Assembly: GCA_913009575.1 (NCBI GenBank)
Contig: CAJVWH010000003.1
Span: 1-43,070, forward strand
Length of the DNA stretch: 43,070 nt
Direction: 5' to 3'
Source of the DNA: an uncultured bacterium
GTDB lineage: Bacteria > Patescibacteriota > Minisyncoccia > UBA9983
Shown here: positions 4,842 to 35,474 of the stretch, piece by piece
Layout of the letters: each line of letters begins with the position of its first letter
Position numbering within the stretch: the stretch's first letter is position 1
Translations under genes and position numbers: made by a program
The notes under the pieces: model-generated
The model's database searches: none
What the model saw: only the letters and a program-made list of their open reading frames with translations
Told to the model about the DNA's origin: nothing

Positions 4842-6974
4842 ATGAAAAATGAATCAAAAAATTCTAAAGGAATGGACGAGAAATTGCTTAAACCTTATGA
4901 ACCGAAAGAAACGGAGGATAAAATTTACGAGATTTGGGAGAAAGGCGGGTTTTTCCGGCCGGAGATTAACCAGTCTCGGACAAATAATCCAAATAAGGGC
5001 AAAACGTTCACCGTTGTTATTCCCCCGCCAAATGTTACGGGTTCTTTGCATATGGGACACGCACTCAACGCCACTATCCAGGACATTCTAGTCCGGCAAA
5101 AAAGAATGCAAGGATATAAAACGCTTTGGCTGCCGGGAACAGACCATGCCGGAATCGCCACTCAAAATGTTGTTGAAAAAAAATTAAAAAAAGAAGGATT
5201 AAGTCGCCACGACTTAGGCAAAGAAAAATTTATTGAAAGAGTATGGGAATGGAAAAAAGAATATGGAAATATTATTTTGGGACAATTAAAAAAACTCGGT
5301 GCCTCGTGCGATTGGTCGCGGACAAAATTCACCATGGATGAGGATTACGCCAAAGCGGTTAAGGCGGCTTTTCTTCATTATTATAAAAAAGGATGGATCT
5401 ACCAAGGAGACCGTGTTGTTAATTGGTGCGTAAGATGCCAAACATCACTCTCTGATTTGGAACTGGAGTATGAAGAAGAGAAAGGAAAGTTATGGCATAT
5501 AAAATATCCTATTAAAGACAGTAAAAAATTCATCACTGTGGCCACAACCAGACCTGAGACGATGTTGGGAGACTCTGCGGTGGCGGTAAACCCGAAAGAC
5601 GAAAGATACAAGAAACTTATTGGAAAAACAGTTATACTGCCCATCGCGAATCGGGAAATACCAATTGTGGCCGACCGCGCGATTGAAATGGAATTCGGCA
5701 CGGGTGCCGTTAAAACAACACCAGCTCACGATATGCTTGATTTTGAAATTGGGCAAAAAAATAATCTGCCGGTTCATAAAATAATAAATCAGTTCGGCAA
5801 AATGACCACCGAGGCCGGAAGTGAATATGAAGGCCTTTCTGCAAAGGATGCACGGGGAAAAATTATTATTGAACTTGAAAAACTGAGCTTACTTGAAAAA
5901 ACGGAAAATTATGACCACAGAGTTTCAAAATGTTACCGATGCGGAAAAGTTATTGAACCCCAAATAAGCAAACAATGGTTCTTGAAAATGGATGAATTGG
6001 CGAAAAAGGCAAAAGAAGCGGTAAAAAAAGGCGAGGTTTCCTTTTGCCCCAAGCGATGGGAAAAAGTATATTTTAACTGGATGGACAACATTAAGGATTG
6101 GTGCGTTTCCAGACAAATATGGTGGGGACACAAGATACCGCTTGAAGGCGTTGACGATGTTCTTGACACTTGGTTCTCATCGGCTTTGTGGCCTTTCGCT
6201 ACGCTTGGATGGCCGGAGGAGGAAAGCTCTGATTTAAAAGAATTTTATCCAACACAAGTAATCTCAACCGCTAGAGATATTATCAATCTATGGGTGGCGA
6301 GAATGATTTTTTCTTCTTATGAATTTATGAAACAAAAACCTTTTACAGACATTATCATTCATCCGACGATTCTCACCAAAGACGGCAAAAGGATGTCAAA
6401 ATCTCTCGGAACAGGCATAGACCCCATGAATTTGATAGAAAAATACGGCGCCGACGCCACGCGCTTTGGACTGATTTACCAAATGATGGGAGGGCAAGAT
6501 ATTCACTTTTCTGAAGATGCCATAATGGCCGGAAAAAAGTTTGCCAACAAACTTTGGAATATCGCGCGTTTTGTTTCAGGACAAAGTGAGGGATTAAAAC
6601 CCGAAACAAAAAAATCAAAACAAGATGAAGAAATCATAAAAAAACTTGATGATATAATCAACTCCGTTAATAAAGATATGGAAGAATATAAATTCGGGCA
6701 AGCATTGCACACTATTTATGATTTTGTCTGGCATGACTTTGCGGATGAATACATAGAATATGCGAAAAAAAACCAAACGGATAAAACCAAGGAAATACTT
6801 TGTGAATCACTCAAAAAAATACTAACTATTCTCCACCCTTTTATGCCTTTTATTACGGAAGAAATTTGGTCAGTACTGCCCAAAAAAAATAATAAATTCC
6901 AACACCTTTCAAGGTTGAAACTCAAGCCGAAAATGTCGGAGTTATTAATAACAAAGGAATGGTTGAAACAATGA
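4842..6974 (+). CDS. valS: Valyl-tRNA synthetase, compact form
   Basis: This class I aminoacyl-tRNA synthetase charges tRNA-Val. The HIGH motif is HMGH near residue 70 (GSLHMGHALNA), the editing domain carries TTRPETMLGDSAVAV, and KRMSKSLG (about 516-523) is the KMSKS loop. DVLDTWFSSALWPFATLGWPEE identifies ValRS. The protein is 710 residues, short for the family: only about five residues separate WWGHKIP from DVLDTWF, where other ValRS have an insert of roughly 35 or more residues, and the C-terminal coiled-coil arm is absent. The start chosen is the ATG at 4842, preceded by GGGGAG at 4829-4834; an upstream in-frame TTG at 4824 is less likely. It heads a valS-prsW-hsp20 run. Confidence 0.95.
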   Translation: MKNESKNSKGMDEKLLKPYEPKETEDKIYEIWEKGGFFRPEINQSRTNNPNKGKTFTVVIPPPNVTGSLHMGHALNATIQDILVRQKRMQGYKTLWLPGTDHAGIATQNVVEKKLKKEGLSRHDLGKEKFIERVWEWKKEYGNIILGQLKKLGASCDWSRTKFTMDEDYAKAVKAAFLHYYKKGWIYQGDRVVNWCVRCQTSLSDLELEYEEEKGKLWHIKYPIKDSKKFITVATTRPETMLGDSAVAVNPKDERYKKLIGKTVILPIANREIPIVADRAIEMEFGTGAVKTTPAHDMLDFEIGQKNNLPVHKIINQFGKMTTEAGSEYEGLSAKDARGKIIIELEKLSLLEKTENYDHRVSKCYRCGKVIEPQISKQWFLKMDELAKKAKEAVKKGEVSFCPKRWEKVYFNWMDNIKDWCVSRQIWWGHKIPLEGVDDVLDTWFSSALWPFATLGWPEEESSDLKEFYPTQVISTARDIINLWVARMIFSSYEFMKQKPFTDIIIHPTILTKDGKRMSKSLGTGIDPMNLIEKYGADATRFGLIYQMMGGQDIHFSEDAIMAGKKFANKLWNIARFVSGQSEGLKPETKKSKQDEEIIKKLDDIINSVNKDMEEYKFGQALHTIYDFVWHDFADEYIEYAKKNQTDKTKEILCESLKKILTILHPFMPFITEEIWSVLPKKNNKFQHLSRLKLKPKMSELLITKEWLKQ

Positions 6975-7681
6975 CAATACAAAATCTGTTGTATGCTCTT
7001 TTGGGAGGTGTTCTTCCGGTATTGCTTTGGCTTTGGTTTTGGCTTAAAGAGGATAACCGCCGGCCTGAACCGAGAAAAGTCCTAATGGCGACATTTTTTG
7101 CCGGAATGATTGCGGTTCTGTTCGCTTTGGTGATAGAACGCTCTCTTTTCATGGGAGAAAAAATCCTGGGAATTGAAAAAACCTTTTTGGGCACAGTTCT
7201 GCTTTTATTTCTATGGGCGCTTGTTGAAGAAGTTGTGAAATATCTCGCCGCTAAATACGCAGCTCTCAAAAGAAAAAGCTTTGATGAACCCATAGACGCC
7301 TTAATTTACCTCATTACCGCCGCACTTGGATTCGCGGCGCTGGAAAATACGCTTTTTCTGCTTCAAGCGTTCGGCATTAGCCCAATGTCCGGGTTTATTA
7401 CCACCAATCTGCGCTTTTTGGGAGCCACCCTGCTTCATGTGGCAACTTCCGGAATAGTGGGCGCGAGCATCGGATTTTCCTTCTTTCACAAAAAAGATAT
7501 GAGGCGCAATGTAATCGGCGGAATCGCGATTGCTACAACTTTGCATTTTATTTTCAACTATTATATAATAAACAATGGCGGGGGTAATGTTTTAAAGACC
7601 TTTATCCCCTTGTGGATAATAATAATAATTGTTATATTTTTATTTGAGAGGGTTAAAAGAATTAAAAAAGAAAAATTATGA
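6971..7681 (+). CDS. PrsW-family intramembrane metalloprotease-like protein
   Basis: A polytopic membrane protein of 236 residues with about seven hydrophobic segments. The motifs EEVVKY, FAALEN and the His of LLHVATSG and LHFIFNY match the PrsW family (CPBP-like superfamily), whose members cleave membrane-bound substrates such as anti-sigma factors. The substrate here is unknown. The start at 6971 makes an ATGA overlap with the valS stop, favouring translational coupling, and AAAGGA lies at 6953-6958. The ATG at 6959 would add four residues (MVET) and is the alternative. The gene in turn overlaps hsp20 by ATGA. Confidence 0.8.
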   Translation: MTIQNLLYALLGGVLPVLLWLWFWLKEDNRRPEPRKVLMATFFAGMIAVLFALVIERSLFMGEKILGIEKTFLGTVLLLFLWALVEEVVKYLAAKYAALKRKSFDEPIDALIYLITAALGFAALENTLFLLQAFGISPMSGFITTNLRFLGATLLHVATSGIVGASIGFSFFHKKDMRRNVIGGIAIATTLHFIFNYYIINNGGGNVLKTFIPLWIIIIIVIFLFERVKRIKKEKL

Positions 7682-8142
7682 AAAAATCATTTTTTGAAAG
7701 ACTCACGGGTTCTTCAAATGACGAAATGGATGAGGAGCGCGATATGGATATTAACAAGGGTGTTATAGATAAAGAAAACAACGGCAACGACTGGATGGAA
7801 GAAAACAACGACGAGGGCCAATTGACAGTGGACGTTTTCCAAACCACTGATGACATTATAATCAAGGCGATGGTCGCGGGAGTAAAGCCGGACGATCTTG
7901 ATGTTTCCATAACACAGGATATGATAACCATTCGGGGCAAACGGGAAGAGCGCCACAAAGTGGAAAGAGAAAATTATTTCTATCGGGAGCTTTACTGGGG
8001 AACGTTCTCACGTTCAATTCTTCTGCCTCAAGAAATTGACCCCGACGAAGCGGAGGCTGCAATCAAAAACGGAATTATCACAATTAAACTTCCCAAATTG
8101 GACAAGGAAAAAGTCCAGAAACTGAAAGTGAAAAGCGAATAG
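7678..8142 (+). CDS. Small heat shock protein, Hsp20/alpha-crystallin family
   Basis: This ATP-independent holdase binds unfolding proteins in the cytosol. The protein has 154 residues. After an acidic, low-complexity N-terminus (about 1-45) comes the alpha-crystallin domain: LTVDVFQTTDDIIIKAMVAG, the GVKPDDLDVSI strand region, ITIRGKREE, YRELYWGTFSRSILLP and the closing GIITIKLPK. The ATG overlaps the preceding protease stop (ATGA), so it is probably translated by coupling in the valS operon. Pairing a chaperone with a membrane protease suggests an envelope or protein quality-control role, which is inference. Confidence 0.92.
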   Translation: MKKSFFERLTGSSNDEMDEERDMDINKGVIDKENNGNDWMEENNDEGQLTVDVFQTTDDIIIKAMVAGVKPDDLDVSITQDMITIRGKREERHKVERENYFYRELYWGTFSRSILLPQEIDPDEAEAAIKNGIITIKLPKLDKEKVQKLKVKSE

Positions 8143-8156
8143 TTCTCAATCAAAAT

Positions 8157-8187
8157 AAAAAAAACCCCGCCTATAAGAGCGCGGGGT
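8157..8187 (-). terminator. Intrinsic terminator for the 8203-8448 gene
   Basis: Read on the minus strand, ACCCCGC/GCGGGGT stems (8181-8187 with 8164-8170) enclose a 10-base loop and run straight into seven T. It follows the minus-strand gene by some 15 bases. It may also act weakly for hsp20 from the other side. Confidence 0.8.
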
Positions 8188-8202
8188 AGGAGGTTTCGGT
8201 TT

Positions 8203-8448
8203 TTAAAAAATACTCTCAGGGAACGCGACCATAACAACAGGTTCATGGTCACAACAACTCTCACCGAGGGACAAAGCGAGATCAAAAATATCAGCATCCT
8301 TGGTCGGTCTAATCTTTGCAACACCGTTTCGGAAACTGACAAAACCCTGATTGCCAATTTTTTCCTTTAAGGGTTTGATATCCTCATAGGAGCTTAAAAC
8401 TTCAATCCTGTTGCTTAATAAAATACCTTCCAATATAGTGCCTTTCAT
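8203..8448 (-). CDS. Small hypothetical protein with a strong Shine-Dalgarno sequence
   Basis: The product is 81 residues starting MKGTILEGILLSN; I do not recognise its family. It contains a CCDHE cluster (ESCCDHEPVVMVAF) near the C-terminus and a FVSFRNGVAKIRP segment. There is no signal peptide or membrane helix. The start at 8448 is chosen because GGAGGAGAG directly precedes it; the frame could also open at a GTG at 8487. A second AAGGAGG lies further upstream at 8504-8510. It has its own intrinsic terminator, so it is a one-gene unit. The strong Shine-Dalgarno sequence is unlike that of most neighbours. Confidence 0.7.
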   Translation of the reverse strand: MKGTILEGILLSNRIEVLSSYEDIKPLKEKIGNQGFVSFRNGVAKIRPTKDADIFDLALSLGESCCDHEPVVMVAFPESIF

Positions 8449-8595
8449 CTCTCCTCCAATTCTTTTAAGTTTTTTTAAAGTAAACACCCAAAAACCAAAA
8501 AAACCTCCTTTCTATTATTTTGTTCTAAACCTAGAAGCCATTATACCACTCACAAAAAATAAAGCAAGAAAAAACGATAGGGTGTGAATGAATGA

Positions 8596-24368: not shown

Positions 24369-24440
24369 GCGCGTGTAGTTCAATGGTAGAACGCTATCCT
24401 GATAAGATAGAGGTCGTAGGTTCGATTCCTACCACGCGCA
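24369..24440 (+). tRNA. tRNA-Ile (GAT)
   Basis: Acceptor GCGCGTG/CACGCGC is perfect; the stem CTATC/GATAG holds the loop CTGATAA (anticodon GAT); the T-arm is GTAGGTTCGATTCCTAC; the discriminator is A. No CCA is encoded. It lies beside the 16S 3' end but on the opposite strand, unlike the usual spacer tRNA-Ile. Confidence 0.95.
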
Positions 24441-24649
24441 CAAATACATTTCCATCATACCAAAGAACCGTCGTTTTGCAATACGCGCCGGCGGTTTGGG
24501 AACTCATTGAATATTCTTTCTTCTGTTCCGTCCCCCCCGTTAACCGTACGGGAGTGAGGGGCCGAGATTTCGGGCTCATCGGCCAACACCGTTATTCGCC
24601 CGAAGGCGAACCGACCTACTATCTCTCCGCCGTGGCGAAGAGTAAATAG

Positions 24650-26121
24650 TTGAATGTTATCCACGACCAGGTTCCCCTAGCCGTGCCTTGTTACGACTTC
24701 GTCCCTGTCACCGAACTTACCTTAGGACCCATTAAAGGATACTTCGGGTACTCCCGGCTTCCTTGACGTGACGGGCGGTGAGTACAAGACTTGGGAACGT
24801 ATTCACCGCGGTATAGCTGACCCGCGATTACTAGCGATTCCAACTTCATGAGGTCGAGTTGCAGACCTCAATCCGAACTGGGGTACACTTTGATGGGATT
24901 AGCTCCGCCTTACGGCTTCGCGGCCCTCTGTATGCACCATTGTATCATGTGTGTAGCCCAGGGCGTCAAAGGGACATGCTGACTTGGCGTCATCCTCTCC
25001 TTCCTCCCCGTATAACGGGGCAGTCTCGCCTGACACTTGTAACAGGCAACGAGGGTTGCGTTCGTTAACCCACTTAAGGGAACAATTCAAACCACGAACT
25101 GACGACAGCCATGCATCACCTGTCCAGCCGTCCTTGTGAGAAAGAATTCCTTTCGGAAAACCGTCGACTGGATTTCAAGCCCTGGTAAGGTTCTTCGTTT
25201 ATCGTCGAATTAAACCACATGATCCACCGCTTGTGCAAGTCCCCGTCTATTCCTTTGAGTTTTAAGCTTGCGCTCGTACTTCCCAGGCGGTTCACTTAAC
25301 GCGTTAGCTTCGCCACTCCGAGGGTCGATACTCGGAATAGCCAGTGAACATCGTTTAGGGCGTGGACTACGAGGGTATCTAATCCTCTTCGCTACCCACG
25401 CTTTCGTGCCTCAGGGTCAGGAATACGCCAATCTGCTGCCTTCGCCTTTGGTGTTCCCCACGATATCAACGGATTTCACCCCTACACCGTGAGTTCCACA
25501 GATCTCTCGCATCCTCAAAGCCGTGCCGTTTCCAACCCATTTTTCCGGTTAAGCCGGAATTTTTAAGGAAGGACTAACACGGCCCCCTACACACCCTTTA
25601 CGCCCAGTAAATCCGGACAACGCTCGGGGTACTCGTATTACCGCTGCTGCTGGCACGAGTTTAGCAACCCCTTATTCTTGGGCTAATATCATCGAAATTT
25701 TTCACCCATAAAAGCAGTTTACACCCCGAAGGGCTTCATCCTGCACGCGGCGTCGCTCCATCAGGCTTTCGCCCATTGTGGAAGACTCTCGACTGCTGCC
25801 ATCCGTAGATGTATGGCCCGTGTCTCAGTGCCATCGGTGGGGACCAGGCTCTCACCCCCCCTAGCCGTCATAGCCTTGGTAAGCCATTACCTTACCAACA
25901 AGCTGATAGCGCGCAGGCCCATCCTCAAGCGATAAATCTTTACCCCTTGGGGACCATCAAGTATTAGCTACGGTTTCCCGCAGTTATCCCTGACTTGAGG
26001 GCAGGTGCCTACGTGTTACTACCTCGTCTGCCGCTGTCCGACCGAAATCGGACCGCTCGACTTGCATGCCTTCTCCACGCCGCCAGCGTTCGTCCTGAGC
26101 TAGGATCAAACTCTCAAAAAA
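24650..26121 (-). rRNA. 16S ribosomal RNA, lacking a CCUCC anti-Shine-Dalgarno core
   Basis: Conserved stretches are readable on the minus strand: AGAGTTTGATCCTAGCTCAG at the 5' end, GTGCCAGCAGCAGCGGTAAT, ATTAGATACCCTCGTAGTCC, AACTCAAAGGAATAGACGGG, and ACTCACCGCCCGTCAC near the end. Length (about 1.47 kb) is near normal with no large insertion. The 3' end keeps helix 45 (CACGGCTAGG, loop GGAA, CCTGGTCGTG, fully paired) but continues GGATAACATTC in place of GGATCACCTCC. Ends are approximate. The gene stands alone: tRNA-Ile downstream is on the other strand and 23S is about 4.7 kb upstream beyond protein genes. Confidence 0.96.
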
Positions 26122-26267
26122 TGTTCGCTCGCCAAAGGCGAGCAAAACTAGAACGGAACAAAAGAAAAAATATTACAATAGATGAATCTATATTTATCCC
26201 GTAAGAAACCAAAAAATCTCAAACGAGAAATTTTTCAAAGTGCGCGCCGTCTTTTCAGTACCTTATC

Positions 26268-26296
26268 ATTGTATACCCAGAGAATTCTGATGTCAA
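26268..26296 (-). promoter_or_regulatory. Promoter of the 16S rRNA gene
   Basis: TTGACA (26296-26291), exactly 17 bases, then TACAAT (26273-26268). A hairpin GCTCGCC AAA GGCGAGC (26127-26143) lies between it and the 16S 5' end. The strong consensus supports independent transcription of 16S. Confidence 0.8.
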
Positions 26297-26379
26297 GAAA
26301 AATAAAAATAAGATTATACCAAATTCCGGAGACGGCGAGGAAGTGGCATAATTCGTTGGAATTATTTAACGATTTAAGA

Positions 26380-27273
26380 TTATTTTTTTCGCCTCTTTTG
26401 AAATTTATAGATGGTCACCAGCAAAGGTGACGCAATAAAAATTGAGGAATAAGTTCCGGCGGCAACGCCGATAATAAGCGCCAATGAGAAAAATCTTGTC
26501 GTTTCTCCGCCAAAGAAAAAGATGGCTCCCAACACAAGGAGAACCGTCAAAGAGGTGTTTATTGAACGGGTAATCGTTTGATTGACACTGATTCCGACTG
26601 TTCCTTCAAAATCATTGCCTATGCCCCTGTGAAGATTTTCCCTCACCCTGTCAAAGACAACAATCGTATCGTGGACCGAAAAACCAAGAATGGTGAGAAG
26701 TGCGGTGACAAATAAAACATCCACTTCAGCCCCGAAATATTTTCCAAGCACGGCGAAGGCGCCGAGTGGAATCATTACATCGTGCGTCAACGCTACAATA
26801 GCCATTAAGCCAAATTTAAAAGAAGACACCGGTCTTGAAACTTTGCGAAAAACAAAAGCAATATAAAAAATAATCATCAAGACCACCAAAGCGAGAGCAA
26901 TCCAAGATTTTTGGCGCAACTCCCTGCCGATAATCGGGCCAATTGAATCAAAACGAACTTCAGTCAATTCGCCAGAAGAACTGAGCGAAGAAAGCAATTC
27001 AGCGTGTTCTTTTTTGGTAAGGTTTCTTGAACGGGCGATAAGACCTTTTTCTCCCGCGGGCTGTAAGATAACGTTTTTAAAGTCAAGTTTTTTAATTTTT
27101 ATTTGCAATTCCGCCATTGGAGGACGAACGGTTTTATATTCCACTTCCACTAAAGAACCACCGGTAAAATCAATACCAAAATTCAAACCGAAATAAAAAA
27201 CAGAAAATACGCTTGCCGCCACAAGCAATCCTGAAATACTGTACCAAATTTTTCTGTGTTTAATAATTCCCAT
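26380..27273 (-). CDS. secF: Protein translocase subunit SecF
   Basis: A 297-residue partner of SecD that uses the proton gradient to complete protein export. Six hydrophobic segments are visible; family landmarks are FGLNFGIDFTGGSLVEV near the start, then VDVLFVTALLTILGFSVHDTIVVFDRVREN and TRSINTSLTVLLVLGAIFFFGG. It begins one base after the secD stop and is therefore translated with it. The basic tail FQKRRKK is normal. Confidence 0.96.
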   Translation of the reverse strand: MGIIKHRKIWYSISGLLVAASVFSVFYFGLNFGIDFTGGSLVEVEYKTVRPPMAELQIKIKKLDFKNVILQPAGEKGLIARSRNLTKKEHAELLSSLSSSGELTEVRFDSIGPIIGRELRQKSWIALALVVLMIIFYIAFVFRKVSRPVSSFKFGLMAIVALTHDVMIPLGAFAVLGKYFGAEVDVLFVTALLTILGFSVHDTIVVFDRVRENLHRGIGNDFEGTVGISVNQTITRSINTSLTVLLVLGAIFFFGGETTRFFSLALIIGVAAGTYSSIFIASPLLVTIYKFQKRRKK

Positions 27274-27274
27274 A

Positions 27275-28591
27275 TTATTTTATGCCGCTCCCCATTAAAA
27301 ATCCGCTAATTTTGTTTTCACCCTTCACGCCCAACGCCATCAAAAATGTCCTGCTGATGGTAATTGCCGACAGCATACTGATTAAAACTCCTATGCCGAG
27401 TGTGAGGGCAAAACCCTTAACCATACTGGTGCCCATCCAATAAAGTATACCTGATGAAATCAAACTTGAAGCGTTTGAGTCGCGAATGGAAAGCCATGCG
27501 CGGGAAAACCCTTCAGTAATGGCGGTGCCAATCGCCTTGCCCGCGGCGCGTTCTTCTTTCATTCTTTCAAAAATAAGTATGTTGGCGTCAACCGCCATTC
27601 CAACCGACAAAATAAAGCCGGCAATACCCGCAGAAGTGAGAGTAACCGGAATGAGCTTAAAAACTGCCAACACTAAGGCGGTATAAATTGCCAAAGCGAT
27701 AACCGAAATCAAACCGGGAAGACGGTACCAAAAAATAAGAAAGAGGGCCACCAAAATAATCCCATAAAGCCCTGCTCTAACACCTTTAAACAAAACTTTT
27801 TCTCCAAGAGTCGGGCCGATAGTTTGTTGGGAAATTAAACTTATCGGCACAGGCAAGGCTCCCGAGTTAAGCCGCTGGACCAAAATTTTTGCCTCTTTGG
27901 CGGTAAACTGGCCGGTAATCTGCGCCTTGCCGCCCGTGATTTCACTCCTTATAACCGGCGTGCTTATGGGCGCGCCGTCCAGAAAAATCGCCAGCCGTTT
28001 GCCTATGTTTGCTTTTGTGATTTTGGCGAAAATTTTCGTCCCTTCGGAGTTAAACTCAATGGAAACTTCCGGTTCAAAAGTCGTTTGATTAAAATCAAGG
28101 CGCGCCTTTTTAAGAAATCTTCCGGTTAAGCCAGTAGGCAAATAAGCTTTATCCAACGCCGTATCCTGGTTTATTTTTATGTCCGGATTTTCCAGACGGA
28201 ATTCAAGAAAAGGCGTCCTGCCTATCATTTTTATCGCCTGATTTACATCCGTAACTCCCGGAAGTTCAACAATAAGGCGATAATCCTTGTTTTGCGCGGT
28301 TTTTAAAATGCCTTTTTCCTCCACTTGTACCAGCGGTTCAGCAACTCCAAAAAAGTTTATACGCCTCTCAATGACATCTCTCAGGCCATCCATTGCGCCT
28401 GAAATTTCCGATGGCTTAATCGCTGAAATATCCGCCTCATAAACAAGATGCACACCCCCGCGCAAATCAAGCCCCAGTTTAAACGGACGGGAAAGAATTG
28501 ATTCGGGATTGACAACGTGAAGAACATCAAAATAGCCGATTGCCATGCCGACTATCAAAATTGAAATCGCAATAACTCTATATTTTGCCAT
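27275..28591 (-). CDS. secD: Protein translocase subunit SecD
   Basis: A 438-residue SecD of short, single P1-domain-type length. After an N-terminal membrane helix come KLGLDLRGGVHLVYEADI, the periplasmic domain (VIERRINFFGVAEPLVQVEE, VELPGV), and the C-terminal five-helix unit with SLISQQTIGPTLGEKVLFKG, GFILSVGMAVDANILIFERMKEE and ISMLSAITISRTFL. It pairs with secF one base downstream. No Shine-Dalgarno sequence; the -10 box of a TTGCAA-17-TAAGAT promoter is eight bases before the ATG. Confidence 0.96.
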   Translation of the reverse strand: MAKYRVIAISILIVGMAIGYFDVLHVVNPESILSRPFKLGLDLRGGVHLVYEADISAIKPSEISGAMDGLRDVIERRINFFGVAEPLVQVEEKGILKTAQNKDYRLIVELPGVTDVNQAIKMIGRTPFLEFRLENPDIKINQDTALDKAYLPTGLTGRFLKKARLDFNQTTFEPEVSIEFNSEGTKIFAKITKANIGKRLAIFLDGAPISTPVIRSEITGGKAQITGQFTAKEAKILVQRLNSGALPVPISLISQQTIGPTLGEKVLFKGVRAGLYGIILVALFLIFWYRLPGLISVIALAIYTALVLAVFKLIPVTLTSAGIAGFILSVGMAVDANILIFERMKEERAAGKAIGTAITEGFSRAWLSIRDSNASSLISSGILYWMGTSMVKGFALTLGIGVLISMLSAITISRTFLMALGVKGENKISGFLMGSGIK

Positions 28592-28599
28592 TGATGTCT

Positions 28600-28628
28600 A
28601 TCTTATAATATCTTCAGCTTTTTTGCAA
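28600..28628 (-). promoter_or_regulatory. Promoter of secD-secF, near-leaderless
   Basis: TTGCAA (28628-28623), 17 bases, TAAGAT (28605-28600), then eight bases to the secD ATG at 28591. Transcription would begin one or two bases before the start codon. Confidence 0.6.
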
Positions 28629-28662
28629 TATTACCCGGTCTTAAAGCATAAATGGCGGAATT

Positions 28663-29787
28663 TTACGCTCCCAATAACTCCAGCATGGAATCTTCACGAT
28701 AAGACTGCCGGCTGTAGCGGCGCATTCCCATTAAAATTCCCAAACCGGCGAAAATCGTAAGCATATGAGAACCACCATAACTCATAAAAGGCATTGTGAT
28801 GCCGGTAATCGGAAGCAATCCGATATTCATTCCTATGTGTATCGCAAAATGTGATACCAAAAAAATCGCCATTCCAATACCAAAAAAAGACTCAAAATTA
28901 TTTCGGCCCAAAAAAGCGATTTTTAATATACGCCATATAATGATACTAAAAAAAATAAAAATAAAAATCACGCCAACCAAGCCCCACTCCTCAGCGAAAG
29001 CCGCAAAAATAAAATCAGTCTGATGCTCTGGTAAAAAATTAAGCCGCGACTGTGTTCCGAAGCCAATCCCTTTTCCAAAAACACGCCCCGACCCAACGGC
29101 AATCGTTGACTGATAAGCGTTATAACCGGTCCCCTGTACATCTTTGAGGGGGTGCAAGAAAGTGACTACCCGTTCCTTTTGATACGGCTTGAAGACAAAA
29201 AACCAAGATACACCGAAAACAAGAACGATTACCAAAAAAACAAGTAGGAGATGTTTTTTACTTACCCCTGAAGCCATTATCATCCCCAACCAAATAAAAA
29301 AAAGTATAATGGCCGAACCAAAATCAGGTTGGGAAAAAATAAGCACCGCGGGAAGAAAAACATAAAGTCCTGAGACGATAATATGGCGAATATGTTTAAT
29401 TTCAATATGCCTCCCAGAAAAATATTTTGCTAAAATGAGAATAATAAGCAACTTAGCGGGATCTGACGGCTCAATAGCAAAAAAGGGAAGGGCAATCCAT
29501 GAAGCGGCGCCACGTATAACTCTGCCAATCAACAAAAGAGCGAGCAAAACGGCAATTGTAATTGCCCAAAAAAGCATAAGCACCTCCCCTTTTCTCAAAA
29601 AACGCCAGTCAACGAGACTGAATAAAAAAAACAACACCAAAGAAATTGTAATCCATATAATTTGTCTTGAGAAAAAATGATTGTCTCCGCCGCCAATAGC
29701 GCGCATAGTAATAAGTCCGGCCGCGAGAAGAGGAAGTGTGGAAAGCAAAAGTATCCAATCAATATGGAAAAATTTTTTAATTATCAT
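28663..29787 (-). CDS. rodA: SEDS-family peptidoglycan glycosyltransferase RodA/FtsW
   Basis: A 374-residue polytopic membrane enzyme that polymerises lipid II. About ten hydrophobic segments are present; SEDS motifs are AIEPSDPAKLLIILILAKYF, SQPDFGSAIILFFIWLGM, the loop GTGYNAYQSTIAVGSGRVFGKGIGFGTQSRLNFLPEHQTDFIFAAFAEEWG (quoted as landmarks GTGYNAYQS and LPEHQTDFIFA) and the C-terminal GITMPFMSYGGSHML. RodA is favoured over FtsW by length and the GRVFGKG loop, but this is not certain. It overlaps the stop of the upstream hypothetical gene by 11 bases. murB elsewhere in the window belongs to the same pathway. Confidence 0.92.
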   Translation of the reverse strand: MIIKKFFHIDWILLLSTLPLLAAGLITMRAIGGGDNHFFSRQIIWITISLVLFFLFSLVDWRFLRKGEVLMLFWAITIAVLLALLLIGRVIRGAASWIALPFFAIEPSDPAKLLIILILAKYFSGRHIEIKHIRHIIVSGLYVFLPAVLIFSQPDFGSAIILFFIWLGMIMASGVSKKHLLLVFLVIVLVFGVSWFFVFKPYQKERVVTFLHPLKDVQGTGYNAYQSTIAVGSGRVFGKGIGFGTQSRLNFLPEHQTDFIFAAFAEEWGLVGVIFIFIFFSIIIWRILKIAFLGRNNFESFFGIGMAIFLVSHFAIHIGMNIGLLPITGITMPFMSYGGSHMLTIFAGLGILMGMRRYSRQSYREDSMLELLGA

Positions 29788-30538
29788 GCGTAAGATTTGT
29801 TCTCAAAAATATTTTTGTTGAGGCAGGCGGCCGCGAAAACGGCACTGGCCAAGTAAGGGCGGTTTGCCTTGATGAATTGCCGTTTACGGATTCCACCGAA
29901 GTGGCACTGGCACCGATTGCATTACCCTCTTCATCAAAAAGAACGGCGGCAATTGACAAATTTTTTACGGGATCAAATGATTTATTGCTAATTTCAATAA
30001 TTAGACGCGGGAATGGCTCATTGGTAAAATCTTTTTTGGAAACCACAATTTGCGGTTTTTCTTTTTCTATCCTTTCCCATTTCGGATTTTTCTCAAATTC
30101 AACAAAGGCGCGCACGGGAATGCGCTCTCCAACATCAATATTTGCTTGAAAAATTACATAATCTTCTCCGGGATTTATAAAAGTTTCCCCATCACGAACA
30201 GCAACAAGTACATTGTCGCTGTCATAAAGTTTAAATTTATATTTAAGGGCATGAATACCGACAAAAAGGTTGGGATTTTTAACTATAGCAGCAGCATCAT
30301 ACTTGCCATTTTCCAATTTGAACGCTTTGCTCCAAACAACTATAAGGTTTTTCACCTCTCCAAGGCATGGTTTACAGGAACCGCCGCAATCAATACCCAG
30401 TTCATTCTGGTTTTGCTTATTGTCAAAACAGGTCGGTTTTGAGACAAGAATTATCACCAAAACAACCGCAAACACCACTATTGCGCCGAAAACAAAAAAA
30501 ATAGTAATCTGCCTTTTTACTGTCCAAGGAATGGGCAT
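29777..30538 (-). CDS. Membrane-anchored hypothetical protein with Cys-rich motif
   Basis: A 253-residue protein: basic N-terminus (MPIPWTVKRQ), one membrane helix (about 11-34), then an exported part opening with a Cys motif (KPTCFDNKQNQNELGIDCGG followed by SCKPC), which resembles the repeats that hold metal or disulfides in CPR surface proteins. Two beta-rich regions follow (KYDAAAIVKNPNLFVGIHALKYKFKLYD and FPRLIIEISNKSFDPVKNLSIAAVLFD) with a FxxL-type domain pattern of unknown function. The start at 30538 is preferred over 30565 because TATTATAAAG precedes it by a few bases. It overlaps rodA by 11 bases. Confidence 0.75.
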   Translation of the reverse strand: MPIPWTVKRQITIFFVFGAIVVFAVVLVIILVSKPTCFDNKQNQNELGIDCGGSCKPCLGEVKNLIVVWSKAFKLENGKYDAAAIVKNPNLFVGIHALKYKFKLYDSDNVLVAVRDGETFINPGEDYVIFQANIDVGERIPVRAFVEFEKNPKWERIEKEKPQIVVSKKDFTNEPFPRLIIEISNKSFDPVKNLSIAAVLFDEEGNAIGASATSVESVNGNSSRQTALTWPVPFSRPPASTKIFLRTNLTHDN

Positions 30539-30586
30539 AACTTTATAATACAAAAAATTAAGCAAAATTAAAACCCATAACCAAAT

Positions 30587-30645
30587 GGCTGGTTACTTTC
30601 CCTATTTGAGCATCATCACCACATTCCACTTTTATGTCCCCTCGG
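30587..30645 (-). pseudogene. Degenerate 3' half of a second 5S rRNA
   Basis: The plus-strand text GGTTACTTTCCCTATTTGAG, CATCATCACCACATTCCACT and CCCCTCGG lines up with the 5S gene's GCTTACTTTCCCCTTGCGAG, TATCATCAGCACTACGATGC and TGTTCGG. It lies directly downstream of the intact 5S on the same strand and lacks the 5' half. It is most simply a decayed tandem duplicate. Confidence 0.65.
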
Positions 30646-30646
30646 T

Positions 30647-30799
<153 letters not shown>

Positions 30800-31010
30800 A
30801 AAAACATTCAAACATACAAATTTCCTAATAGGAAGACGATTATTAGTACTCCTCGGCTAAATCCGCCTGTGGCGGACTGACACCATCTCAGCCCGAAGGC
30901 CTCAACAATAATCAGTTCACTTGCAAACGAATCAAACACGCATTACTGCGCTTACACCTAGAGCCTATCAACGTGGTCATCTTCCACGCATCTACGATTC
31001 CTAATCTTGG

Positions 31011-31052
<42 letters not shown>

Positions 31053-31282
31053 CAACATAGCTACCCAGCGTTGCTCCTGGCGGAACAGCTGGTACACCAG
31101 AGGTTAGTTCTTTCCGGTCCTCTCGTACTAGGAAAAAATCTCCTCAAGAATCAACGCCTGCAGCAGATAGGAGACCGACCTGTCTTACGACGGTCTGAAC
31201 CCAGCTCGCGTAACCTTTTAATTGGCGAACAGCCAAACCCTTGGGACCTTCTCCAGCCCCAGGATAGGTTGAGCCGACATCG

Positions 31283-32091
31283 TACATTTATCCATTATTG
31301 CTAATGGTGTGGACTATATCTTCTTCCTTCCATTTTTCAACGGAGTGGGAAGTTGGCGTCTTAGCCCTCCGCATTTGGAGGGCTCCATCCGCCGCGGCGG
31401 ATGAGTCTCTACGGGGTCATAACTCAATTTGTATCTCATTGATGGAATAATATACTCATCAATAATGCGATTTAATCCAGGAATACTTTCTTTCAAAAAC
31501 CTGATGCGATAATAACTTTTATCACGATTCAAACGCGCTTTCAGCCCCATTTGGCGCAATAAGTGCAAAAGCCTTTTTTGATCCAAATAACTGAACTGTT
31601 GCGTGTTTAGATAGACATCCGATTTTCTTGATTTACTTCCGTCATCCATAAACCAAACAGCAAGAATTACAGGGTCTAATTTTAAGTCGGAAGAAATTAC
31701 TTTCTTTCCATTCTTGTAAAATTTTTTTATTAATTCCGTAATTTTTTTATGCTGTTGAGTAAAAAAGCGATATGCTGTTTTATCTTTACCGTTTTTTCTT
31801 GCTTTCGGAGCAGATTTGCAAATATCCTTTAAAATTGAAAATTTCCAATCAACATATTCCTTCGCTTTTATGGAATGATTAATTTCTAAAAATGCGTTTT
31901 TTCGCCCGGGCATTATTCTAATATGCCCGTTACCTAAAATCGATCCTAAAATAACCGATTTTTGTAATTGAGTTAGACTTCCCACGGTATTGTCCATAAC
32001 CGCATTATGGCTGATTTTAGTTATGGAGTCCACCGTTATAAGCCAAATTTTTCTTGTAGAATATTACTATTCTAGGCACCCCGATATGTTA
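31283..32091 (-). other. Group I intron in 23S rRNA (peptidyl-transferase region), with homing endonuclease
   Basis: The exons read ATCGACGGCGGTGTTCGGCACCT and CGATGTCGGCTCAACC when the 809 bases between are removed, which restores the universal 23S sequence; by E. coli numbering I place the junction near U2500. The intron holds the P7-like pair GTGGACT (about 32035) with AGTCCAC in AAGATATAGTCCACACC (about 31310), a group I core signature. Exact ends are uncertain by two or three bases: the restored junction leaves the intron ending in TA, not the usual G. Confidence 0.85.
31314..31997 (-). CDS. LAGLIDADG homing endonuclease within the 23S intron
   Basis: The product has 227 residues from an ATG at 31997 (MDNTVGSLTQLQKSVILGSI); the frame also opens at a GTG at 32033 inside the intron core. 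Two LAGLIDADG-like helices are visible: VILGSILGNGHIRI and VILAVWFMDDGSKSR. The rest is typical for the single-chain family found in 23S introns (KAKEYVDWKFSIL, TQQHKKITELIKKFY, SMRYKLSYDPV). The enzyme would cut intronless 23S genes to spread the intron. The C-terminal tail after about residue 195 (HPPRRMEPSKCGGLRRQLPT) is encoded by two hairpins (31386-31403 and 31363-31384) and the stop lies in the intron core GATATAG. Confidence 0.88.
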   Translation of the reverse strand: MDNTVGSLTQLQKSVILGSILGNGHIRIMPGRKNAFLEINHSIKAKEYVDWKFSILKDICKSAPKARKNGKDKTAYRFFTQQHKKITELIKKFYKNGKKVISSDLKLDPVILAVWFMDDGSKSRKSDVYLNTQQFSYLDQKRLLHLLRQMGLKARLNRDKSYYRIRFLKESIPGLNRIIDEYIIPSMRYKLSYDPVETHPPRRMEPSKCGGLRRQLPTPLKNGRKKI

Positions 32092-32661
32092 AGGTGCCGA
32101 ACACCGCCGTCGATATGAACTCTTAGGCGGTACCAGCCTGTTATCCCCGGAGTAGCTTTTATCCGTTAATCCTGCGCCGCATCTAATGCGAACGTTCGGT
32201 TCACTATGCTCCGCTTTCGCGCCTGCTCGACATGTCCGTCTCGCAGTCAAGCCAGCTTATGCCATTACACTATCAGCACGGTTTCCATCCGCGCCTAGCT
32301 GACCTTAATAGACTCCTCCGTTACTTTTTGGGAGGAGAGCGCCCCACTCAAACTACCCACCAGGCACTGTCTCCGCTCCGTTTTACGGAACAGGTTAGAA
32401 TTTAAATTTCAAAAGGGCGGTATTTCACTGGCGGCTCCATTCCGGCCAAAACCGAAATTTCAAAGCCTCCCGCCTATGCTACGCATTTAAAACTTAAACT
32501 CAATACCAAGCTATAGTAAAGCTTCCGGGGTCTTTTCGTCTAGCTGCAGGTAGAGGGCATCTTTACCCCCATTGCATTTTCACCGGGCTGCTTCCCGAGA
32601 CAGTCCCCCAGTCGTTACGCCTTTCGTGCACGTCGGAACTTACCCGACAAGGAATTACGCT

Positions 32662-32963
32662 TAAATTTGTTACTTCGCGACAAATTACTTTCATGTATTT
32701 GTTGCGGAGCAGGTCATTTCTGCCTGCTTCTGCATGTCGCCATGCAGTTCGGACCATATCTTTCCACCTATTGGTGGATTCGGCGTATGGTCTCTGAGGG
32801 GTCATATCCATATAAATGGACAGAGGACTTCCCTGCTGATTATCCGCACCGGACGCATTTTTACCTTTATCTAATATGTAGTAAAGGTAGCGCCGAATAC
32901 TACACCCCTTTTAGGAGACGGATTTTCCAGCATATAGCCGAATTTTACTAAGGCAGCTTTCCT
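32662..32963 (-). other. ORF-less group I intron in 23S rRNA (I-CeuI/Simkania-type region)
   Basis: The flanking exons TATAATCGTCCTAAGGT and AGCGTAATTCCTTGTCGGG join to restore the conserved domain IV sequence around E. coli 1920-1930. P1 is visible: exon CUAAGGU with intron GCCUUAG, closing with the expected U-G. The core has GTGCGGATAATCAGCAGGGA (P4-P6 region), CTCAGAGACCATACG and AAGATATGGTCC, where GACCAT pairs with ATGGTC as P7. Length is about 302 bases with no endonuclease frame. The 3' end is uncertain by a few bases because no terminal G fits perfectly. Confidence 0.85.
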
Positions 32964-33157
32964 ACCTTAGGACGATTATAGTTATCGCCGACATTCACCG
33001 GGGCTTATATCGCTCAGCCTCCGACCGAAGTCAAAGACCCGCAATATTTAACCTTCCGGCATTGGTCAGGCGTCACCCCCTATACATCCTCTTGCGAGTT
33101 CGCAGGGAGCTGTGTTTTTGATAAACAGTCGCCAGGGGTACTTTCGCTGCGGCCAAA

Positions 33158-33315
33158 CCGCACCTCGCTACGCTCGGGCGGAATTTATAATTTCTAATTC
33201 TTAATTTCTAAATAAACCTTAATTATCCAATGCTTAAAAATTAAAACATTAGAAAATTGTTTAAAAATTTAAAATTAATAATTAAAAATTCCGTGCCGAA
33301 TGCAATGAGGTACGG
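33158..33315 (-). repeat. 23S hairpin insertion with A+T-rich core (IVS 1)
   Basis: G+C-rich arms (CCGCACCTCGCTACGCTCGG and its near-complement ending GAATGCAATGAGGTACGG) enclose about 110 bases of A+T-rich repeat such as TTTATAATTTCTAATTCTTA. It lies in the domain IV/V approach of 23S. Its arms match those of the insertion at 35106. Confidence 0.8.
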
Positions 33316-33859
33316 TCTGGCAACCCTTATTCCGAAGTTACGGGTGCTTTTTTGCCGAGTTCCTTAGAAAGCACTCACCCGTTCGCCTTGGTCTTCTCGA
33401 CCTGCCTACCTGTGTCGGTTTACGGTACGGTTTTCCCAATCTTAGCTCTAGAGGTTTTTCTTGGAAGCCCGCTCAATGAGATTTTTCCTGCCGAAACAGA
33501 AAATTTTCCCAACGCTTGGATTTGCCCGAAAGCGCGTTGTGGATTTACCTGCAACGCATCCTCACGCAAGGAACATGAATCCAATAACATGCCCCATTTA
33601 CAGAGCTTCGTCACCCCGTCGAAAAATTGAGAAAGGGACGGAATATTAACCGTCTGTCCATCGGCTTCGGATTTCTCCATCGCCTTAGGCCCGCCTAACC
33701 CTTGGATGATCACCATTGCCAAGGAAACCTTAGGCTTTCGGCGTCCCGGTAATCTCACCGGGATTGTGGTTACTTGTGCCAACATTCTTGCTTCATAACG
33801 CTCCACCCCGGGTCACCCCGTAGGCTTCACAGCAGTTATAAATACTCTCCTACCGCTCA

Positions 33860-34012
33860 ATCACATCTCACCATGTTCAATGTTCAAATTTTCAATTTTG
33901 TAATTTTTAATTTCCAAACAATTTCCAATAATTTAATGATTTAATTTTTAAAATTTAGGCATTTAATCATTGTTTGAAAATTAGAAATTCATCGAATACA
34001 ATGAGATGTGAT
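33860..34012 (-). repeat. 23S hairpin insertion with A+T-rich core (IVS 2)
   Basis: Arms ATCACATCTCA (33860-33870) and TGAGATGTGAT (34002-34012) close a stem whose interior is A+T-rich inverted repeat (AATTTTTAATTTCCAAACAA paired with TTGTTTGAAAATTAGAAATT). It resembles 23S intervening sequences that are excised without ligation. Confidence 0.8.
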
Positions 34013-34642
34013 CAAGCCCTCACCTTCGGTAGCATACTTAGTCCCGATTATTTTCGGCGCAAAACCTCTTAACGAGTGAGCTATTACGCTTTCTTTAAAA
34101 GATGGCTGCTTCTAAGCCAACTTCCTCGTTGTCTGAGAAATTTTACCTCCTTAAGTACACTTAGTATGCATTTAGGGACCTTAGATTGAGATCTGGGCTG
34201 TTTCCCTTTTGACCAATGGAGCTTAGCCCCCACAGTCTAACTGCCAAGCTTTAACCTTTGGTATTCGGAGTTTGATTGAATAGACGAGGTTTCCCCCTGT
34301 TCCATCCATCCAGTAGCTCTACCCCCAAAGGGAACGCTTGACGCTAACCCAAAAGCTATTTCGGAGAGAACCAGCTATTACCAAGTTCGATTAGCTTTTC
34401 ACTCCATGCCACAGGTCATCCGATGGAATTGAACGACCAACCGGTTCGGGCCTCCATCCCGCCTTCGCGGAACTTCACCCTGCCCATGGCAAGTTCACCT
34501 GGCTTCGGGTCCCAAGCATATAGCATGTTCCGTAAACGGAACAAACGCGCTATTCACACTCGCTTTCGCTAGGCCTCCGCCCTCTCGGGCTTAGACAAGC
34601 TATATACTTGGACTCGTTGGCTCATTCTTCAATAGGCACGCC

Positions 34643-34803
34643 GTCGCGCTCGCTTCGCTTCACGCTCCAATTTCTAATTTTTAATTCTCAATTTCTAAAC
34701 AATGATTTAATTTCTTAATTTTAAAATTATATCATTGGAAATTGTTTGAAAATTAAAAATTTATAATTGAAAATTAAGCGCACAGCGAAGCAAACGCTTC
34801 GAC
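34643..34803 (-). repeat. 23S hairpin insertion with A+T-rich core (IVS 3)
   Basis: Arms GTCGCGCTCGCTTCGCTTCA and GCGAAGCAAACGCTTCGAC flank CCAATTTCTAATTTTTAATT and its complement-like partner. The position, next to GGCACGCCGTC and GACTCCTTGTAGAC, fits helix 25, a known insertion site in other bacteria. Confidence 0.8.
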
Positions 34804-34850
34804 TCCTTGTAGACATATGGTTTCAGGTTCTATTTCACTCCCCTCACCGG

Positions 34851-34891
<41 letters not shown>

Positions 34892-35105
34892 ATCTTGAAG
34901 AGTATTTAGCCTTGGGAGTTAGTGCTCCCTGATTCGCTCGAGGCATTCTTTCCTCGAGTTACTCAAGATCAACAGCAAGAAAGATAATTTTGTTTTCGCT
35001 TACGGGGCTATTACCCTCTTTGGCTTCGCTTTCCAGCAAAATTCAACTAACAAAATAATTTTGTAACTTTCCAGTTAATGAAAACTGCGCTGTTGTCTTA
35101 CAACC

Positions 35106-35197
35106 CCCGGCCGCACCTCGCTACGCTCGGGCGGAATTTCTAAATTTTAAATTAAAAATTGAAAATTCCGTGCCGAACACAGTGAGGTGCGGCCGGG
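35106..35197 (-). repeat. 23S hairpin insertion (IVS 4) sharing arms with IVS 1
   Basis: Arms CCCGGCCGCACCTCGCTACG and its near-complement ending GTGAGGTGCGGCCGGG enclose a short A+T-rich core TTTCTAAATTTTAAATTAAA. The motif GCACCTCGCTACGCTCGGGC is shared with 33160-33179. Confidence 0.82.
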
Positions 35198-35474
35198 TTT
35201 GGGCTGTTCCCTTTTCGCTCGCCACTACTTAGGGAATAATACATTGTTTTCTTTTCCTCCAGGTACTGAGATGTTTCACTTCCCTGGGTTCCCATTCCGA
35301 TTGCTCGGAATGCTGCAGGTTTACCCGCAGCAGGTTTCCCCATTCGGAGATCCCCGGATCAAAGCCTGCTAGGCGGCTCCCCGAGGCTTATCGCAGCCAC
35401 ACTACGTCCTTCATCGGCTCTTCAAGTCAAGGCATCCACCATACGCCCTTAATTTTCCTATTAGGAAATTTGTA

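Follow-up and report, generated by a model that had tools for sequence, protein, structure and literature searches.

Probable ancestral loss of the anti-Shine-Dalgarno sequence from the 16S rRNA of a large Parcubacteria clade

Most bacteria locate their gene starts by the anti-Shine-Dalgarno (anti-SD) sequence of the rRNA, which counts among the most invariant stretches in bacterial rRNA. The 16S rRNA gene of an uncultured member of the Patescibacteriota seems to end without it, which raises the questions whether this end is real, how old the change is, and how gene starts could be found in such an organism. The gene is part of a stretch of 43,070 nucleotides that was analysed as a whole (contig CAJVWH010000003.1 of assembly GCA_913009575.1; hereafter the window). 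The corresponding genome of 651,712 bases is a MAG of 39 contigs, which is 94.6% complete and has an estimated contamination of 1.85%.

The 16S rRNA gene is encoded on the minus strand at 24649-26121 (Rfam RF00177, 1400.8 bits, model positions 1-1533), and its 3' end reads ...AAGTCGTAACAAGG CACGGCTAGG GGAA CCTGGTCGTG GATAACATTCAACTATTTACTC. Helix 45 (CACGGCTAGG-GGAA-CCTGGTCGTG; 24662-24685, minus strand) is intact with all of its ten pairs, two of which are G-U, and RNA folding yields the same helix, in agreement with an earlier sequence-only reading of this DNA. That reading had further regarded the compensated helix as an argument against misassembly, which is weak since much of the clade has an identical helix-45 sequence. 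Directly after the helix, bases 24661-24652 read GATAACATTC where GATCACCTCC is expected. Three of the ten positions differ, and the CCUCC core is lost with CATTC (24656-24652) in place of the expected CCTCC. At the RNA level the helix is followed by GAUAACAUUCAACUAUUUA, while anti-SD-positive relatives have GAUCACCUCCUUUCUA. The 3' tail of the 16S is GATAACATTCAACTATTTA (24643-24661, minus strand). The missing CCUCC, the central claim of the sequence-only reading, is thus confirmed, and GGATCACCTCC does not occur once across the whole 652-kb genome. A second 16S copy with a normal end, which would have spoken against the claim, was searched for in the genome and not found; the gene at 24649-26121 is the only one. 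The hidden anti-SD known from Bacteroidota, where CCUCC is present but masked by ribosomal proteins, does not apply here, the window's tail having no CCUCC that could be masked. The rRNA genes of the window are split and arranged in an unusual order on one strand (24649-35462, minus strand), with 23S and 5S followed by about 4.5 kb containing a 262-aa ORF and genes for FtsW/RodA, SecD, and SecF, and then by 16S. The 23S rRNA gene (30902-35462, minus strand) is about 4.6 kb long and includes a group I intron match (32730-32993) and an ORF for a LAGLIDADG_2 homing endonuclease (31314-32033, minus strand).

The sequence-only reading had proposed a comparison with the 16S genes of close relatives, and by this comparison the loss is clade-wide and not new to the window's genome. 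An independent MAG (L037), whose 16S is 94.4% identical over 483 nt, has an identical 13-base tail, and the anti-SD is missing from each of the eight members of the window's family in which helix 45 is readable. From the class, 384 genomes were sampled, and helix 45 fits a strict pattern in 213 of these. NNACCTCC directly follows the helix in 72 and is absent in 141 (66%), and complete loss is at most this frequent because near-canonical variants such as ATCTCC (L328, L306) and CCTTC (L173) are counted in. When named bacterial genomes were scanned for the window's type of helix 45, at least 119 loci were found, and among the matches listed 118 of 119 are without CCTCC; the titles listed name Parcubacteria/Paceibacterota (Kaiser-, Nomura-, Zambryski-, Yonath-, Giovannoni-, Niyogi-, Taga-, Vogel-, and Campbellbacteria) or unnamed bacteria. 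Tails lacking the anti-SD are also present in genomes that contain one very long contig (e.g. G242 and G345). Starting with the last base of helix 45, a run of 16 letters shows hardly any variation among 33 anti-SD-positive relatives, and thus the changed tail of the window is not a matter of chance. Among 92 distinct anti-SD-less tails, GGA are the only virtually invariant letters beyond helix 45. The constraint on the tail was thus released. Further losses or changes of the anti-SD were noticed in L159 (G204), L173 (G243), and L176 (G300), which have GGATCATTTTTTT, GGATCACCTTC, and GGATCACTTAC, respectively, and whose families otherwise retain the anti-SD.

Concerning the age of the loss, a tree of 70 partial 16S sequences was computed by a quick method with helix 45 and the tail excluded. 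On this tree 45 anti-SD-less sequences are found on one side of a branch with a support of 87, and 43 of them are united by a starred branch with a support of 97. The anti-SD state changes four times in all, two of the changes being forced by starred branches. The window's 16S groups with its own family, which is located inside the large anti-SD-less clade and adjoins a branch of 36 sequences. Because of this position the loss must predate the family, and on this tree it is ancestral to the clade of 45 sampled sequences. A relaxation of the tail might also be linked to Era, whose binding sites in the 16S tail are GAUCA and CCUCC (PMC10582724); the loss of Era would remove one constraint on the tail. 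The genome of the window gave no true Era over the cut-off. The search of the class sample resulted in weak matches to other GTPases and in one match over the cut-off, a Der-like two-domain protein of 471 aa in G009. This agrees with the loss of era from most CPR (PMC10582724, PMC12641178).

In the sister branch, the tail appears to have become a short covarying hairpin. Many tails of this branch have the forms UUC-AAUUU-GAA, UCC-AAUU-GGA, CUC-AAAUU-GAG, and GUC-AAUU-GAC, and in L031-L149 the covarying inverted repeat (UUC/GAA, UCC/GGA, CUC/GAG, GUC/GAC) occupies the position of the anti-SD. A stem of at least three pairs near this position is present in 92% of 112 distinct tails compared to 51% of shuffled ones. 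Of 64 distinct 19-mers, 32 are paired when the register is fixed, compared to 15.4 (s.d. 2.5, maximum 25, 2000 trials) with swapped 3' arms and 0-18 after sliding; these counts are inflated by related sequences, but pair changes on both sides are nonetheless seen. The stem is weak, and one of three tested tails does not form it in an energy fold. RNA folding of the window's own tail did not reveal a hairpin.

For the gene starts, the set comprised 544 genes from about 600 kb of the window's genome, the first ATG of the longest ORF being taken as start, while about 75-140 kb were sampled per genome for the relatives. Relative to the ATG, TATAAT peaks at -12. A Pribnow-like word is found at -15 to -11 in 109 genes (19 expected), and 74 of the 544 genes have the extended -10 motif TGnTAnnnT immediately ahead of the ATG, compared to 4-9 in control windows. 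The -10 signal is present in 22-30% of the genes with upstream space of their own but in 12% of those directly behind another gene. Leaderless genes of bacteria are characterised by a TA-like signal some 12 bp ahead of the start (PMC3160421), and a -10 box at this distance suggests that transcription begins at or beside the ATG. Leaderless mRNAs are therefore a likely initiation route for many genes. In addition, the start regions are predicted to be little structured, with a mean 41-nt folding energy of -2.6 to -2.8 kcal/mol compared to about -4.7 upstream and -6 inside genes. The same promoter position was found in several anti-SD-positive relatives, and thus leaderless-type promoters are not a consequence of the anti-SD loss. 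Leaderless expression is therefore likely to have come first and to have allowed the anti-SD to be lost. In anti-SD-less relatives AATTAA, which is complementary to UUAAUU of several tails, is found 30 times at -18 to -4 compared to 2; this enrichment may be explained by the A+T-rich composition.

The sequence-only reading had noted that most genes lack SD sequences. This is true but incomplete, because strong SD words, counted at -16 to -9 before the start, are present in 31 of the 544 genes where 6.5 are expected. Strong SD words at normal spacing mark about 4.5% of the genes, nearly all of them accessory, and the spacing is the same as in anti-SD-positive relatives. They are found in none of 54 conserved, 5 of 246 shared, and 26 of 244 unshared genes, unshared meaning that relatives were missing in the sampled parts of 17 genomes of the class. 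The expected coherence of an anti-SD loss with SD-poor genes is thus supported by SD-free conserved genes in a lineage that has ancestrally lost the anti-SD. According to Pfam scans, the SD-bearing genes encode radical SAM, LysM, M23, Band 7, Clp-protease-like, and thymidylate-synthase-like proteins, and there were no ribosomal proteins among the genes scanned. By the rule applied, the window's only strong SD word at SD spacing before an ATG is the GGAGGA of a 94-aa ORF (8203-8487, minus strand), which has no Pfam match. Among the genes of the anti-SD-positive relatives, the SD excess amounts to only some 2-11%, again mostly in unshared ones. The simplest account is that the SD genes were probably imported from SD-using donors. 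The protein of one of them (L192:4749-5516) shares 70% identity with a homolog from another family, whose genome is anti-SD-positive and has the same SD before the gene. The contig that carries L192:4749-5516 also holds infC, whose best matches are from the window's family, and is therefore not foreign. Contamination as a source of the SD genes was rejected because they are spread over most contigs, including this one. A near-identical leader (AACATAATAATACAGAAAGGAGGCAGTG or its core AAAGGAGGCA) precedes accessory genes on three contigs of one genome (L189:110-1624 and 6768-8234, L294:15578-16153, L315:2439-2945), as if a leader cassette had spread.

What else could have led to such a 16S end? 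The genome being a fragmented MAG with some estimated contamination, the end could be chimeric or the contig could derive from another organism. However, it is hard to imagine how an artefact would produce the same tail in the independent MAG L037, anti-SD-less tails in every family member read and in the long-contig genomes G242 and G345, and a 16S that groups with its own family. There is also no sign of the chimeric junction that had been named as a possible refutation, and hardly any credence can be given to this explanation. Alternatively, the CCUCC could be displaced and supplied by a separate RNA or behind an intron following helix 45. Introns do occur in the rRNA genes here, as in the 23S rRNA, and a displaced anti-SD would also explain why the retained SD words hold their normal spacing of -15 to -11. 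However, the 1.5 kb downstream of the window's 16S contain no ACCTCC, and the convergent tRNA-Ile(GAT) gene at 24369-24441 (plus strand; ARAGORN and Rfam) leaves little space for a displaced 3' exon. In addition, across 154 anti-SD-less loci CCTCC has no preferred position in the downstream 1.5 kb, and the conserved genes would still be without SD. A displacement is therefore extremely improbable.

The pairing could also have evolved anew, because TGTTA and ATGTTA, which would pair with UAACAU of the new tail, are enriched upstream of the starts (30 compared to 10.5, and 15 compared to 4, respectively). However, almost every copy of the word opens an extended -10 box (TGTTAnnnT). Boxes of the form TGnTAnnnT whose middle base differs are enriched to the same degree (52 compared to 5), the enrichment is also present in relatives with other tails, and no other word complementary to the tail exceeds what the A+T-rich composition would give, all of which makes a new pair very improbable. 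CUCUU in the tail (positions 21-25, numbered from the last base of the helix) was rejected as a weak, displaced site since its complement AAGAG is not enriched (12 compared to 11.5). One point that counts against a true loss is that 31 genes retain strong SD words with the usual spacing, an odd finding if these words are read by nothing. They might be functional and under selection instead of being marks of import. The excess over expectation and the normal spacing would fit, as would their location on genuine chromosome contigs, where a distance of only 0.8 kb separates the family-type infC from a radical SAM gene with an SD. However, the anti-SD loss is older than the family, no conserved gene carries an SD, and five genomes of other anti-SD-less branches (G345, G242, G052, G262, G116), four of which have hairpin-like tails, are at background with 5 SD words compared to 3.5 expected. 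Together with the homolog that shares its SD with an anti-SD-positive genome, this renders selection on functional SD words unlikely. Even less likely is a separate initiation channel, in which the SD words of accessory genes would be recognised by something besides the 16S tail, perhaps a trans-acting RNA or protein supplied by mobile elements.

Thus, a true loss of the anti-SD in a Parcubacteria ancestor, with leaderless starts and with SD words on imported genes that are not read by the 16S, is the preferred explanation, to which as a whole we assign a probability of about 0.8. We infer the following order of events. SD pairing was probably already marginal in the ancestor of the large clade, and the anti-SD was then lost. 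A tail without use would have drifted in sequence until only GGA was kept beyond helix 45. Many first genes would be translated from leaderless mRNAs with the often extended -10 box 12 bases before the start codon. The internal and the remaining leadered genes would probably depend on coupling, on IF3 and a protein similar to bS1, and on a start region that is rich in A and unstructured, while the few strong SD words would belong to probably imported accessory genes and would not be read by 16S pairing. The window's genome encodes IF3, a protein with four S1 domains, and bS21, which was missed by the Pfam model but found at C25:2035-2244 with the protein of a relative (46% identity). A loss of bS21 as correlate was rejected because bS21 is present in anti-SD-less and anti-SD-positive genomes alike.

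A species-rich branch of the Parcubacteria without anti-SD would mean that bacteria can do without SD pairing on a large scale, beyond a few symbionts and the Flavobacteriia. The Parcubacteria would offer a natural series of kept, degraded, lost, and hairpin-replaced anti-SDs for testing the role of the 16S tail, and gene-start prediction in anti-SD-less genomes is affected. It has been stated that CPR 16S 3' ends are "often not fully annotated" (PMC12641178), and part of these may be real losses. The clade-wide ancestry and breadth, the hairpin tail, the leaderless signal, and the restriction of SD words to accessory genes were not found in the literature searched, with preprints and most subscription journals outside.

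As a kind, the anti-SD loss is known. SD-scarce organisms without CCUCC reported in 2024 include five CPR genomes, namely one Campbellbacteria, one Wolfebacteria, two Absconditabacteria, and one Peribacter genome (PMC10783764). They resemble the window's genome in lacking CCUCC after helix 45 and in having few SD motifs, and Campbellbacteria loci (L088, L107) fall into the window's anti-SD-less clade. The window's genome corresponds to category iv of that study, with a tail without CCUCC, a sole 16S copy, a lineage-typical loss (8/8 of the family, 45-row clade), and scarce SD words (31/544 genes, none of the 54 conserved ones). However, single CPR genomes are listed there, whereas here the loss could be followed back to the root of a large clade of Parcubacteria, and the leaderless promoter signal, the confinement of SD words to accessory genes, and the hairpin tail of the sister branch go beyond that listing. 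An earlier study reported 128 organisms with variant or no anti-SD in 2018, and its main text names no CPR groups or Patescibacteria (PMC6107228). Flavobacteriia, Mycoplasma, Carsonella, and Hodgkinia (PMC6107228, PMC10783764) have independently lost the anti-SD and have few or no SD words like the window's genome, but belong to other phyla. The small-subunit rRNA of mammalian mitochondria also has no anti-SD (PMC10582724), and their transcripts are leaderless (PMC9881170), as is predicted here for many genes; mitochondria are, however, organelles and keep the Era homolog ERAL1, while no Era exceeded the cut-off in the window's genome. The leaderless genes of bacteria (PMC3160421) have the same signal at the same position as found here, a -10 box about 12 bp upstream of the start codons including the TG of the extended form, but those bacteria generally keep the anti-SD, which the window's genome has lost.
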